Shown: positions 38,061-44,039 of the stretch, one piece after another
Layout: every line of letters starts with the position of its first letter
Position numbering within the stretch: the stretch's first letter is position 1
DNA from: Pseudochrobactrum asaccharolyticum
GTDB lineage: Bacteria > Pseudomonadota > Alphaproteobacteria > Rhizobiales > Rhizobiaceae
Length of the DNA: 64,000 bases
Assembly: GCF_003314995.1 (NCBI RefSeq)
Contig: NZ_QNRH01000001.1
Span: 558,001 to 622,000 of the forward strand
Direction of reading: 5' to 3'
Notes under the pieces: generated by a model
Database searches by the model: none
What the model was told of the DNA's origin: nothing
The model's input: only the letters and a program-made list of their open reading frames with translations
Position numbers and translations under genes: made by a program

Positions 38061-40250
38061 TTACAGGGTGCAGGAAACGCAGCCTTCTACCTGTGTGCCT
38101 TCCAGAGCCATCTGGCGCAGGCGGATATAGTAGATCGTTTTGATTCCCTTGCGCCATGCATAAATCTGCGCCTTGTTGATATCGCGTGTTGTTGCGGTAT
38201 CACGGAAGAACAAGGTGAGGGACAGGCCCTGATCCACATGCTGCGTTGCCGCTGCATAGGTGTCGATGATCTTTTCAGCGCCGATTTCATAAGCATCCTG
38301 ATAATAATCGAGATTATCATTGTTCATGAACGGAGCAGGGTAATAAACGCGGCCGATCTTACCTTCCTTGCGAATCTCAATCTTGGATGCAATCGGATGG
38401 ATCGAAGAGGTCGAGTTATTGATGTAGGAAATCGAACCTGTCGGCGGAACAGCCTGAAGGTTACGGTTATACATACCATGCGCCATCACTGATTTGCGCA
38501 ATTCTTCCCAGTCTGCCTGTGTTGGAATCGCAACGCCTGCGGTTTCAAACAGTTCACGAACACGGGCAGTTTCCGGTTCCCAGACCTTGCTTGTATATTT
38601 GTCGAAGAATGTGCCGTCGGCATATTTCGAATCTTCAAAGCCGACAAAGCTTGATTTGCGATCCATCGCAATGCGGTTGGACGCTTTAATCGCGTGATAG
38701 GCCACGGTGTAGAAGTAGATATTGGTGAAATCCACGCCTTCTTCTGAGCCGTAGTAAATACGCTCGCGTGCCAGATAGCCGTGCAGGTTCATCTGACCAA
38801 GGCCAATCGCGTGTGATTCATCATTGCCGCGGGCAATTGATGGCACAGAAACGATCTTGCTCATATCCGACACAGCAGTCAGCGCACGGATCGACGTTTC
38901 AACAGTTTTGCCGAAATCCGGGCTATCCATGGTCATCGCAATATTGAGCGAGCCGAGGTTGCAGGAAATGTCCTTACCGATATGTTCGTAGTTCAGATCG
39001 TCCTTATAGACGCTGGCTTCGCTGACCTGCAGAATTTCCGAGCAGAGATTGCTCATGGTAATGCGGCCGGCAATCGGATTGGCAGCATTCACGGTATCTT
39101 CGAACATGATGTACGGATAGCCGGATTCAAACTGAATTTCCGCCAGTGTCTGGAAGAAAGCACGAGCCTTGATCTTCTGCTTGCGGATGCGGCCATCATC
39201 AACCATTTCACGGTATTTGTCTGTAACCGAGATTTCAGTGAAAGGTACACCGTAAACGCGTTCCACATCATATGGCGAGAACAGATACATATCCTCGTCA
39301 TTTCTTGCCAGCTCAAAGGTAATGTCGGGAATCACCACACCGAGCGACAGCGTTTTAATGCGGATTTTTTCATCGGCATTTTCGCGCTTGGTATCGAGGA
39401 AGCGCATAATATCCGGATGGTGGGCATTAAGATAAACCGCACCGGCACCCTGACGCGCACCCAGCTGGTTGGCATAGGAGAAGGCATCTTCGAGCAGCTT
39501 CATGATCGGAATAATACCGGAAGACTGATTCTCGATCATTTTGATCGGTGCGCCGTGCTCACGGATATTGGTGAGCGAGAAAGCAACACCACCGCCGCGC
39601 TTGGAAAGCTGCAGCGCGGAATTGATCGAGCGACCGATCGATTCCATATTGTCTTCCATACGCAGCAGGAAGCAGGAGACCAGCTCACCGCGCTGTTTTT
39701 TACCGGCATTGAGGAAGGTTGGTGTCGCTGGCTGGAAACGGCCGGACAGCACTTCTTCCATGATCGAGATCGCCAGAGCTTCGTCACCGTCGGCCAGAGC
39801 CAGCGCGACCATGCAGACGCGGTCTTCATAACGTTCCAGATAGCGCAGACCGTCAAATGTCTTCAGCGTATAGCTGGTGTAATATTTGAAAGCGCCGAGG
39901 AAGGTCGGGAAGCGGAATTTCTTTTTATAAGCGAGATTGAAGAGATTCTGCACGAACTCGAAAGAGTAGAGATCCAGAACTTCTTTTTCATAATAATTCT
40001 GGGTGACCAGATAATCGAGCTTCTCTTCCAGATTGTGGAAGAAAACCGTGTTCTGGTTCACATGCTGAAGGAAATACTGGCGAACGGCTTTACGATCCAT
40101 ATCAAACTGGATCTCACCATTCGGGCCGAACAGGTTCAGCATGGCATTCAGTGCATGATAATCCATCGCCGGAGTGTCCTTGTTAGAACTCCCGTTGTTT
40201 GAACTGCTTGTGTTGATTTTGTCTTTCCGTTCAAGCTCAAGAGTCGTCAC
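38061..40250 (-). CDS. nrdE: Ribonucleotide reductase class Ib, large subunit
   Basis: 729 residues. NrdE reduces ribonucleoside diphosphates to deoxy forms using the radical from NrdF and electrons from NrdH. It lacks the ATP-cone, as expected for class Ib. Visible elements are [20 protein letters not shown] (substrate-site Cys), [38 protein letters not shown] (active-site Asn-Cys-Glu), [20 protein letters not shown] and the C-terminal redox Cys pair GCVSCTL. The N-terminal ~30 residues (Ser/Asn-rich) are a non-conserved extension; ATG at 40250 is assumed. Confidence 0.97.
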
Positions 40251-40426: not shown

Positions 40427-40843
40427 TCAGGCTGCTTCGGCATGCTGCCAAAAACGTTGCAAACCGTGACGCACCTTCATGACATCCTCATCTGTTCCCG
40501 CCAGTTCGTAGCGATACAGAAACGGTACCTGACATTTCTCAGAAATGACTGTCCCTGCAAGGCAATATGTGGCGCCGAAATTCCGGTTTCCGCCCGCGAT
40601 GACGCCGCGGATGAAAGAACGGTTGGAGCTGTCATTGAGGAAACGAATGACGGGTTTAGGCACCGCGCCGCGTCCGTCTCCTCCGGCATAGGTTGCCACA
40701 ACCAGAACAAATGGCTGGGTAACCTTCAGAATATCTTCCTTCATGCTGCACGGGATACGCAGGGCAGGCAGTCCGGTTTTGGTAACAAAGCGATGCGTAT
40801 TTTGCGTGCCGCTTGAAAAATAGACGAGCATGCTCATAGCCAC
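40427..40843 (-). CDS. nrdI: Class Ib RNR assembly flavodoxin NrdI
   Basis: 138 residues (a few fewer if ATG at 40837 or 40831 is used). It supplies the oxidant that activates the Mn2 form of NrdF. Flavodoxin-like FMN loops are visible: [40 protein letters not shown] and [19 protein letters not shown]. The nrdH gene lies 244 bases upstream and nrdE 176 bases downstream, both on the same strand. Confidence 0.95.
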
Positions 40844-41087: not shown

Positions 41088-41309
41088 TTAAGACAGTGCG
41101 CTGATCATGTCCGGACGGAAACCGGCCCAATGGGTGTCACCGGCAACAACAACCGGAACCTGCATGTAACCAAGGCGCTTAACAGTGTCGAAGCCTTCTG
41201 TATCGGCAGAAATATCAATGATGTTGAAATCGATTCCCTGACGTTCCAGAGCGCGGTAGGTGGCGGTGCACTGAACACAGGCTGGCTTGCTGTAAACGGT
41301 AATGGACAT
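41088..41309 (-). CDS. nrdH: Glutaredoxin-like protein NrdH
   Basis: 73 residues from MSITVYSKP at 41309. NrdH is the thioredoxin-like electron donor to NrdE. Redox site PACVQCTA (CxxC in NrdH form), then DISADTEGFDTVKRLGYMQV, PVVVAGDTHWAGFRPDMISA; the WAGFRPD end is the NrdH hallmark. The long open frame upstream (to 41498) is arginine-rich and is leader. First gene of the operon, preceded by an unusual 1.5 kb non-coding region. Confidence 0.95.
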   Translation of the reverse strand: MSITVYSKPACVQCTATYRALERQGIDFNIIDISADTEGFDTVKRLGYMQVPVVVAGDTHWAGFRPDMISALS

Positions 41310-41405
41310 CGGATTCCTCGTTTCTTGACTGCCCTGATATTTTTCAGAGCTTTCTCTATGTTGTCTGTCTGTTGCTTGTTCCGCTGGGAACCGGCCGCAG
41401 GCAGT

Positions 41406-41604
41406 GTAGCGGGGGCTACGTTTCCCTTTGCAGGGCTTCAATGGCTGCACCGGATGGTGCTTTGTTTTGCATCTTGCGATGCGCGTATTCTTTTGCACCT
41501 CGCGGTGCTCTTAGCTTCTGCACCTTAGGGTGCGGTATTCTCTGTTCTCCGGAGCTTTTTGCCCTCAAAGAACGGTGCGCTTGTTTTTTTGCACCTAACG
41601 GTGC
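41406..41604. repeat. Array of seven miniature tetraloop hairpins
   Basis: Perfect small stems with 4-base loops: GTAGC-GGGG-GCTAC (41406-41419), CCCT-TTGC-AGGG (41424-41435), GCACC-GGAT-GGTGC (41447-41460), GCATC-TTGC-GATGC (41469-41482), GCACC-TCGC-GGTGC (41495-41508), GCACC-TTAG-GGTGC (41520-41533), GCACC-TAAC-GGTGC (41591-41604). Starts are 18-26 bases apart except for the last gap. Spacers are T-rich; GTATTCT occurs in two. Four units share the same stem with different loops, so the stem is what is kept. Confidence 0.75.
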
Positions 41605-42060
41605 GTTTGACGCTTCCCTGTATTCCCCGCCGCTGCGCCTCTGTTGAGGCTGTTACCGGCGATAAATCCGAGCACTGTGGTTTCGCCGCCTTTACGATCA
41701 GAAGGGCGGCGAAATTTACGGCGCGCTTTAATCGCGCCTTTCATGTGCCGCACAAACTGCGGTTAATCCGCAAAACGCATGCTGTACTTTAAAAACTGAT
41801 GATACGGACTGAAGAACGGTAGAGGCAGAAGAGGTGATCCGGATAACTTACGGGAAGCACCGGAGCCGGTTTTACGGATGGTCATATAAAGCCATCGGAC
41901 GCAGTTGTGCCCGGATGGCTGGTGTGGCTGACACGGATGCCTGCGGTGAGTTTTCTGCTGATACGGTATTCTGAAACACAGACTCTGCAGCCTGTTCGTA
42001 ACCTGATACCTGAAAAGCAGCTCTGACCTTGCGCACAACCTGATTCCTGTTGCCTTGTTA

Positions 42061-42109
42061 AAGTGTGATTTTTTGGTCTGTCTATATATAGACGCAACCC
42101 GTCACACTT
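42061..42109. repeat. Nested palindrome
   Basis: AAGTGTGA (42061-42068) pairs with TCACACTT (42102-42109), enclosing the perfect palindrome GTCTATATATAGAC (42080-42093). Possible double protein-binding site or RNA structure; function unknown. Confidence 0.5.
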
Positions 42110-42272
42110 CTTCCGTTTTCAACATGACCGGAGCGTATCGCATTTCATTTCTTCGTTGCGCCCGCTCTGGCTTCTTACATTCGCGGCATACACACAGAAA
42201 ACCGGTTGGCCCTGTGTATTATGCAATGCTCCGGAACTTAAATGACTGACATCAAATTCCGATTCTTGGCCG

Positions 42273-42295
42273 GAAGGGACAAATCCCTTCTTTTT
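42273..42295 (+). terminator. Orphan Rho-independent terminator, plus strand
   Basis: GAAGGGA-CAAA-TCCCTTC (42273-42290) followed by T5. No plus-strand gene lies upstream for kilobases, so it may end an unannotated small RNA starting somewhere in 42060-42240. Confidence 0.65.
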
Positions 42296-42418
42296 CGGCA
42301 AAGAACAGGCGTGACTGATCCGGATTACACTCGGTATTTCCGTATTCAACGCACCTGATAAAGTCGTTTTAAGCGCCGTTTCGAATCTGCGGTCGCAGAA
42401 TCGTGGGATCTGCTTAAG

Positions 42419-42467
42419 ACACTATATATGGTATATGTTATGAATTTTTCGTCAATACCTATGGTGT
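42419..42467 (-). promoter_or_regulatory. NrdR-like box pair with promoter, directed at nrdH
   Basis: Read on the minus strand: ACACCATAGGTATTGA (42467-42452; 11 of 16 to the NrdR consensus as I remember it) and ATACCATATATAGTGT (42434-42419; 14 of 16), 33 bases apart start to start, i.e. about three helical turns. A -35-like TTGACG overlaps the first and a weak -10 (TACCAT, 16-base spacer) overlaps the second. This fits repression of RNR genes by NrdR, but it lies 1.1 kb from nrdH. Confidence 0.5.
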
Positions 42468-42851
42468 CTCTGATTTATTTTTACCCGCTATACACAGGGC
42501 TGTATAAATATCCGGGAGAGAGGCCAAAAGGCAAAAAGCCGGCATGAGGGCAGGGTGCCGCCGGTGCATATGATTCTTATCCGCAATATATAAGAAATAA
42601 GCGCTTTTAGGGCTGAATCTTTGCAGTTCGCAGGCAGATTCTTTGCTTTACAAAAGCGGCAGAACAGTCTCGCGATTCTTTTTTTGAAATTTATTTGGCC
42701 ATGACAGACAAAATAATTTTATCGTCATGCGATAGCGGTTTGCGACCGATATCACCTAGTGTGAATCAATTTATGAGAAAATGCTGACATACCATAGATT
42801 TAGTATGCTCAGACTATATGTAGTAGGTGGTCTTAAAGAGGAGGGGATGAA

Positions 42852-42927
<76 letters not shown>

Positions 42928-43025
42928 GCTCGCTAAAAGCGGTATGTGCTAAATTTAAATCCGTCATGAATATGAGCACACATATCTACAACTTCGTTCA
43001 GCAAACTGATTTCTCAGAGAGTGAA

Positions 43026-43101
<76 letters not shown>

Positions 43102-43199
43102 GCTCGCTAAAAGCGGTTTGTGCTAAATTTAGATCAATCATCAATACAAGCACATATAATGATGACTTCATTCATTAAACTGATTTCTCAGAGAATGAA

Positions 43200-43275
<76 letters not shown>

Positions 43276-43686
43276 GCTCGCTTTGCAGCGGCTGTGAGGG
43301 TCATTTACGGAATTCTTTCACTAAGCGCAAGTGGAGGAATCAAAATAAAACAGAAATCCGCATTATTTTTTACGTATTCACATATCTGACATCCGAACGG
43401 CTGTGGATTTCGGATGATTCTTTGAATTCAGACGCTTAACGTGGGAGGGGCAGACATATTTTTATATGGTTTTGTGTATAAAAATCATGCTCTGAAAGTT
43501 ACCTATATATATAAAGTACACAACAGCACGGCTTCGCCATAATTATCTCTTTTTCGGTGAAAAACTTTTAAAACCTCGCTTGACAGTTCACAGGGAACCC
43601 ATTAGACAGCGCCCATACCGAACGGAAACGTCACGGTGCCTCAAGCGAACAGCTTGGGTCTTTCAGATCAAGTCTGAAAATACTGC
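43276..43686. other. Gap between divergent tRNA-Val and tRNA-Asp units
   Basis: 411 bases without a gene. It contains promoters for both tRNA units, a CTATATATATAAAG run near 43503, and two small hairpins in the tRNA-Asp leader (CAAGC/GCTTG 43641-43655, TTTCAGA/TCTGAAA 43657-43677). Confidence 0.5.
43580..43608 (+). promoter_or_regulatory. Sigma-70 type promoter for tRNA-Asp
   Basis: TTGACA (43580-43585), a 17-base spacer and TAGACA (43603-43608). About 70 bases of leader lie before tRNA-Asp copy 1. Confidence 0.7.
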
Positions 43687-43763
43687 GCGGGTGTAGCTCA
43701 GTTGGTTAGAGTGCCGGCCTGTCACGCCGGAGGTCGCGGGTTCGAGCCCCGTCACTCGCGCCA
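43687..43763 (+). tRNA. tRNA-Asp (anticodon GUC), copy 1
   Basis: 77 nt with encoded CCA (43761-43763). Acceptor GCGGGTG pairs with CACTCGC (one G:T wobble at the fourth pair), anticodon stem CCGGC/GCCGG with GTC in the loop, and T-arm GCGGG-TTCGAGC-CCCGT. Discriminator is G. Confidence 0.95.
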
Positions 43764-43804
43764 CTTTCTCTTCTTTAAAAATTTGAAATCAGAGAAAGTG
43801 GCGC
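43758..43804. other. Inverted repeat overlapping the 3' end of tRNA-Asp copy 1
   Basis: GCGCCACTTTCTCT (43758-43771) and AGAGAAAGTGGCGC (43791-43804) are perfect 14-bp arms. The left arm contains the CCA end and the last acceptor bases, so the precursor could fold in a competing way. Confidence 0.7.
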
Positions 43805-43962
43805 ACCTCGCCTGCTTTATCAATCTCCTTTTACGTCCAGATTTAACCTTTTGTTTTTAAATGAAATTTTTTTCATTTATTTGTGAATTTTATAAGAAAA
43901 CCCTTTGATTTTAAAAATGAATCAGGGTACATACAAAATCACTTCAGCACATGAAGTACTGC

Positions 43963-44039
43963 GCGGGTGTAGCTCAGTTGGTTAGAGTGCCGGCCTGTCA
44001 CGCCGGAGGTCGCGGGTTCGAGCCCCGTCACTCGCGCCA
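43963..44039 (+). tRNA. tRNA-Asp (anticodon GUC), copy 2
   Basis: 77 nt, identical to copy 1 and 276 bases downstream of it. The duplicate also includes the 3' flank. Confidence 0.95.

Follow-up and report, generated by a model that had tools for sequence, protein, structure and literature searches.

A hairpin array in the nrdHIEF leader of Pseudochrobactrum: a candidate cis-acting RNA selected for shape

In Pseudochrobactrum asaccharolyticum, the minus-strand 5' leader of nrdHIEF contains an array of miniature tetraloop hairpins located 138-295 nt upstream of nrdH. The array is conserved across the genus, its stems keep their pairing potential while its loops drift, and neither a cobalamin riboswitch in the leader nor an NrdJ was detected in the genus. 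Our best explanation, which has fair support at the RNA level and for which the chances are about even overall, is that the array is a cis-acting leader RNA that would be selected for shape over sequence and would grow by duplication of units, within a leader controlled by a uORF. More tentatively, it may represent a novel type of cis-regulatory leader RNA, in which an expandable array selected for shape and spacing, together with a new uORF, would have replaced a B12 riboswitch and would tune expression through its copy number. If this is true, an ancestral metabolite riboswitch would have been lost together with the enzyme giving it sense, with a structurally different leader now preceding the apparently only RNR, and the array would provide a clean test of RNA selection for shape and copy number under little sequence constraint.

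The hairpin array and its place in the nrdHIEF leader

The window, i.e., the whole stretch of 64,000 nucleotides that was analyzed, contains, within positions 41406-41604 (199 bases), eight hairpins in which a perfect Watson-Crick stem of 4 bp or more closes a 4-nt loop, namely at 41406-41419, 41424-41435, 41447-41460, 41469-41482, 41495-41508, 41520-41533, 41558-41569, and 41591-41604. The preliminary description had counted seven; the density that it noticed is confirmed, the count is not. Dinucleotide shuffles (n = 5000) give a mean of 0.57 and a maximum of 4 such hairpins, and when the stem is set to at least 5 bp, six are observed against a mean of 0.13 and a maximum of 3. No shuffle out of 5000 thus exceeded four hairpins, and the density is not reproduced by shuffled sequence. 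When hairpin density is ranked across the whole 64 kb, the top-ranked 200-nt windows all fall over the array region. The 4-bp match at 41558-41569 is probably not a real hairpin, since the same bases are spanned by a conserved 8-bp hairpin at 41544-41573.

All parts of the leader and operon given below lie on the minus strand. The operon was assigned by Pfam and consists of nrdH, glutaredoxin-like and first in order (41088-41309, PF00462), nrdI (40427-40843), nrdE (38061-40250), and nrdF (from about 37988 to 37014). Following the transcript, unit 1 of the array (GCACC-GUUA-GGUGC, 41591-41604) is present in the window and in locus L031 and absent in L032, and it is separated from the remaining units by the 8-bp hairpin GUUCUUUG...CGGAGAAC, in which 47 of 48 cells are paired over six species. 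Unit 2 (GCACC-CUAA-GGUGC, 41520-41533), unit 3 (GCACC-GCGA-GGUGC, 41495-41508), and unit 5 (GCACC-AUCC-GGUGC, 41447-41460) were retrieved by the hairpin scans and in the six-species alignment, while unit 4 (GCAUC-GCAA-GAUGC, 41469-41482) differs from the GCACC/GGUGC stem by one pair altered on both sides. The four GCACC/GGTGC stems and their plus-strand loops GGAT, TCGC, TTAG, and TAAC are exactly as had been claimed, to which the fifth stem, GCATC/GATGC, can be added. The spacers, which had been called T-rich, are so on the plus strand, but the nrd transcript is the minus strand, where they are A-rich. Toward nrdH, two further tetraloop hairpins follow, CCCU-GCAA-AGGG (41424-41435) and GUAGC-CCCC-GCUAC (41406-41419), the latter invariant across six species, and a hairpin CUCUGA/UCAGGG lies directly 5' of the nrdH ribosome-binding region (41332-41349; three of six pairs gapped in one species). 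On the 5' side of the array, two hairpins, GGCGCG/CGCGCC and TTTCGCCGCC/GGCGGCGAAA, can be found at 41681-41738 with three pairs altered on both sides, although the second is only 83.3% paired.

Pairing, loops, and unit number within the genus

The genus sample comprised seven genomes, six of which have nrdH, the seventh genome being 61% complete. The array is present in 6/6 genomes with nrdH, at a similar distance from the gene, and harbors 5, 5, 5, 3, 4, and 4 units. A scan that kept hairpins with at least three Watson-Crick pairs and no mismatches other than G-U or A-C yielded 26 paired units with 130 stem pairs, of which 126 are Watson-Crick, four are G-U (confined to three hairpins), and none is A-C on the transcript strand. 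A rescan without the mismatch filter revealed no extra broken-stem unit within the arrays, except three partnerless half units (GCACC or GCATC) found just before the 8-bp hairpin in the window, where the half unit is GCACC, and in L031 and L032. The linkers are 8-12 nt long, A-rich and U-poor on the transcript; counting those of less than 30 nt, including the ones just downstream of the array, their composition amounts to 199 A, 88 G, 83 C, and 36 T.

Two genomes were compared with the window by site class. With the closer one (L031), differences are seen at 0/50 stem positions, 4/20 loop positions, 3/31 linker positions, and 18/800 positions of the leader from -1100 to -300 (loops versus stems, Fisher 0.005). 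With L032, where the unit-to-unit alignment is less certain, the corresponding values are 3/44, 6/16, 11/30, and 89/795. The earlier proposal that the stem rather than the loop is conserved is supported by both comparisons and by the paired substitutions. The L031 record (JAHREI010000002.1) is titled Bacillus subtilis SK6B4; its nrd locus is that of Pseudochrobactrum, down to an identical NrdH, and the record is evidently mislabelled.

When the six-species alignment is read against a specified structure, 97.3% of the cells pair versus 95.4% in shuffles (reached by 0/500), and eight of 63 pairs are altered on both sides versus a shuffle mean of 2.8 (again reached by 0/500) and versus 0-3 when the partner is slid, with the reservation that these pairing figures lean towards the structure, which was taken from one of six closely related leaders. 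Four of the eight doubly altered pairs belong to the array helices, which are 100% paired. No excess of further pair types is seen in the same alignment (20 versus 19.7 in shuffles, 286/500). Taken together, pairing and A-rich linkers persist while the stems and loops change in sequence and the units in number, a pattern which, judged from sequence comparison, suggests that selection acts on shape and spacing.

Unit number itself behaves as anticipated for an expanding repeat. The species have between three and five units, a 26-nt unit present in two species is absent in L032, which implies gain or loss of a unit, and near-identical neighboring units are found in L032. The same three observations, together with loops more divergent than the surrounding leader, would also be expected of a functionless palindromic DNA satellite, in which slippage would have multiplied a founder palindrome, template switching at quasi-palindromes would maintain the perfect stems, and the RNA would play no part. 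Copies of a founder unit inherit both stem and A-rich linker anyway, which counts against selection. However, imperfect pairing on the transcript always takes the form of G-U and never of A-C, though only in three hairpins. The downstream hairpin CCCU/AGGG, which is not part of the repeat, also changes in pairs (CCCC/GGGG in L034, one pair altered on both sides), and the flanking blocks are invariant. Moreover, doublets of the unit occur in the genus only at the nrdH site, so that a satellite of this kind is considered rather unlikely. The confinement of genus doublets to nrdH, with only solitary unit sites elsewhere in the genome of the window, is also in line with the earlier judgment that neither CRISPR elements (identical repeats with unique spacers) nor REP/BIME elements (copies dispersed over a genome) are involved.

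Among the proposals made at the outset, a sequence-specific protein-binding array draws some weak support. A multivalent platform for a CsrA-, Hfq- or ANTAR-like RNA-binding protein controlling nrdHIEF would be compatible with several similar hairpins on A-rich linkers and with the GNNA loops of 20/26 units. CsrB/RsmZ-type sponge RNAs likewise string together many hairpins separated by A-rich spacers, and GGA is conserved in their loops; in the array, however, GGA occurs in 1/26 loops (AGGA in L034), pairing of the stem is kept while loops vary, and a sponge of the Csr/Rsm type was rejected. The ANTAR dual-hairpin antiterminators likewise consist of small tandem hairpins in leader RNA, but the motif described in PMC3369931 is made of two hairpins whose hexanucleotide loops are conserved (A at position 1, G at position 4), next to a terminator, as against 3-5 units with variable loops in Pseudochrobactrum. 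Read as hexaloops, the 26 units start with C or U and never with A (the search template fixed a 4-nt loop), and the motif as described there (PMC3369931) was rejected. Since the loops differ from unit to unit and the stem sequence changes too, a protein platform appears distinctly unlikely.

Riboswitches in relatives and the distribution of the array

In 12/12 relatives tested, chosen from 76 nrdH loci outside the genus, a cobalamin riboswitch is found upstream of nrdH together with an NrdJ above the curated cut-off. Where the relatives checked have the B12 switch, Pseudochrobactrum has a leader of ~1 kb in which the array is accompanied by a C-rich patch and a conserved uORF. The RF00174 leaders of nrdHIEF in Rhizobiales are otherwise comparable, with the same gene, a similar promoter block with an NrdR-like box, and a long structured 5' leader; they differ in that the Pseudochrobactrum leader has no riboswitch match and harbors a uORF and a hairpin array. 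With a covariance-model match of at least 31.5 bits within the leader as the criterion, the nrdH riboswitches of other genera reach 101.8-133.5 bits, while RF00174 gave no match up to E 10 in the window leader (41250-42560) and none in the genus leaders L005 and L007-L010 (E up to 5) or L031-L034 (gathering score). A degenerate or variant cobalamin riboswitch could be imagined from its presence in relatives and from GCCCCCGC, which by eye is common to the riboswitch core, but in view of these null results and of the high scores elsewhere it is extremely improbable. Cobalamin riboswitches can be found elsewhere in the genome in 7/7 genus genomes. In two relatives (L076, 9871-10117; L068, 1370-1575), additional cobalamin riboswitches lie no more than about 5 kb away from nrdH.

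No NrdJ exceeded the cut-off in any of the seven genus genomes, six of which show weaker matches located at nrdE itself, and NrdD was found in 0/7. With the NrdJ and NrdD models searched, and the NrdJ model matching nowhere besides nrdE, NrdHIEF appears to be the sole RNR of Pseudochrobactrum. By the established logic of such riboswitches, the B12 switch of the relatives could turn NrdHIEF down as NrdJ takes over; with no NrdJ and an apparently single RNR, a loss of B12 repression in the genus would become explicable. Four other family genomes have a close nrdH, two with the riboswitch and two reduced genomes without a match (L013 and L014, of 2.0 and 1.1 Mb). Neither of these two shows a comparable array: a 200-nt span contains no more than two 5-bp hairpins there, or five if stems of 4 bp or more are counted, and absence of the riboswitch alone therefore does not bring an array.

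The conservation proposed as a check was found inside the genus and, as far as searched, not outside it. The exact GCACC/GGTGC doublet occurs in 6/394 family genomes, i.e., in 5/7 genus genomes, each time at nrdH, and in G257, whose doublet (L130) was ruled out as a related array, being an unrelated tandem duplication. In 150 genomes of the order, the doublet search returned nothing besides the window's own match. This exact search missed one genus genome with drifted stems (G004, locus L034), and would likewise miss drifted arrays elsewhere. A covariance model built on the last unit and the two next hairpins, run on 199 family genomes, retrieved three genus genomes at E < 1e-16 and eight other genomes at E 0.009-0.09, which were taken as chance. 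The array is thus confined to the genus as far as searched, with an exact search blind to drifted copies. A literature search of titles and abstract openings revealed no description of this array among the matches listed.

The genome of the window has 21 GCACCN4GGTGC sites, four in the array and 17 outside. The latter are all single; 12/17 are covered by a reading frame that stays open over almost all of the ~400-nt stretch, and two (L139 and L153) resemble, by eye, ordinary terminators. The 76 other nrdH loci (758,602 bases) contain five rows in which 4 or 5 perfect 5-bp hairpins fall within 200 nt; the rows are spread over four loci, and their stems are all unlike. In the viral collection, doublets were found in 53 contigs, 49 of them in open frames of at least 600 nt, i.e., mostly coding repeats. 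Eight viral contigs (L165, L166, L167, L169, L172, L178, L187, and L201) resemble the nrdH array in having rows of GCGCACC-N4-GGTGCGC-like hairpins with differing loops, but they differ from it by longer stems, short linkers, a phage-like character, and a position beside or inside an open frame. In these eight contigs the hairpin rows adjoin a purine- or pyrimidine-rich stretch, depending on the strand.

The upstream leader and a possible mode of action

Far upstream of nrdH, a block with TTGACG (42450-42455) and ATACCATATATAGTGT (42419-42434) is kept in 6/6 genus genomes of the leader alignment, with one change in L034. The promoter-like match is no commoner than in shuffles (one found versus 1.0 expected over 41300-42560). 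ATACCATATATAGTGT, which overlaps the promoter-like site, is a single NrdR-like box matching the NrdR palindrome at 14/16 positions in 5/6 leaders and at 13/16 in L034. It lies 1,125 nt from nrdH in the window and 948-1,124 nt in the other five genomes, whereas the best NrdR-like box of relatives lies 464-582 nt before nrdH in 17/18 (in L061 the second-best box is there), and in three relatives' alignments the riboswitch model begins at this box. Membership of the NrdR regulon calls for a pair of 16-bp palindromic boxes with a phased spacer (PMC12051234).

The position of this block also bears on the array. The units are palindromic, have half sites that resemble one another, and are spaced 22-26 bp apart, and could be read as a DNA operator array of 5-4-5 inverted repeats for a transcription factor. 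However, some 0.7-1 kb separate the array from the conserved promoter-like block upstream of it, which holds the sole promoter-like site found by a consensus scan of 41300-42560, and the G-U changes spoil the palindrome in DNA, so that an operator is very improbable.

Downstream of the block, a conserved uORF (41872-42036, peptide ...LRPMALYDHP) extends over 54 codons in the window. Its frame and an upstream AGGA are kept in 6/6 leaders, its ends (MRKVRAAFQ... and ...LRPMALYDH) are conserved with single changes, and its length differences are multiples of three, two species having 45 codons. The start codon is GTG in the window and two others, and ATG in 3/6. Between the window and L032, 10/18 changes fall at third positions, with 8 synonymous and 7 nonsynonymous changes in frame versus 3/11 and 2/14 in the other frames. 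In more distant pairs, there is more nonsynonymous than synonymous change (10 synonymous and 23 nonsynonymous between the window and L034). The two forms of the peptide scanned had no Pfam match up to E 1, and among 121 family genomes strong matches came only from the two genus genomes sampled, with a best E of 0.012 otherwise. The 78 nt past the uORF stop (41794-41871) are C-rich and G-poor, with C minus G of 11-13, at the 96th-98th percentile of the window, in 6/6 species, and the strongest C-rich/G-poor window of the leader starts near the uORF end in 5/6 leaders. By the usual rut criteria, this stretch could be a putative Rho-loading site. In the E. coli toiL-topAI system, where uORF and Rho control a leader, a uORF is likewise found in a long leader (PMC12121999), and in Pseudochrobactrum a C-rich stretch follows it; the text available of PMC12121999 makes no mention of a hairpin array.

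A leader controlled in this way might have come about as follows. An ancestor would have lost its B12-dependent NrdJ, upon which the B12 riboswitch on nrdHIEF would have been lost too. A different leader would have taken its place, in which translation of the uORF governs the extent to which the long leader is finished, by a Rho-type or translation-coupled mechanism. The hairpins would fold singly as they emerge from the RNA polymerase, selection would act mainly on the paired stem and the open linker, and units would be gained and lost by duplication. The favored role of the array, proposed with some reserve, is a protective or insulating one, in which such local structures, taking up much of the RNA before nrdH, leave few sites for Rho loading or RNase E, so that the message would be stable and the nrdH ribosome site spared from long-range pairing. 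RNWUU is the motif of RNase E; it is absent from -230 to -137 in 6/6 species, versus 9-12 occurrences in the preceding 330 nt.

Regarding folding, the z score of a 354-nt stretch is -6.1 as minus-strand RNA and -4.2 for the plus strand. At equilibrium, pairing between units is often preferred in several species, with a probability of the local stem ranging from 0.00 to 0.99. Independent hairpins would thus require co-transcriptional folding, and the inter-unit pairing speaks either for this or for weak selection on independent hairpins. Repeated hairpin-stabilized pauses of the RNA polymerase, timing elongation, for instance to suit Rho or to couple it with the uORF, would fit the 8-12-nt linkers, which place a finished hairpin about one exit-channel length behind the polymerase as the next one begins, and the C-rich stretch downstream of the uORF. 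The G usually found upstream of a pause is, however, not apparent by eye in the linkers, and sequence alone cannot tell pausing from a protective role; such a pausing array is judged unlikely.

The array had also been described as too short for an attenuator, and indeed no stem-loop with a U run was found on the nrd transcript near the array in the scan of 41300-42560. The sole minus-strand site among the six terminator-like ones found lies far upstream (42257-42275), and an intrinsic attenuator on the nrd transcript was therefore rejected. The five plus-strand terminator-like sites (41447-41738) run antisense to the leader, where 1.7 such sites are expected for both strands together from shuffles of 41300-42560. 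They are possibly a by-product of hairpins with T-rich linkers, or an antisense stop. Beyond the leader, at 42852-44039, three equal-scoring tRNA-Val(tac) on the minus strand with a 174-nt spacing and two tRNA-Asp(gtc) on the plus strand form a tandem repeat.
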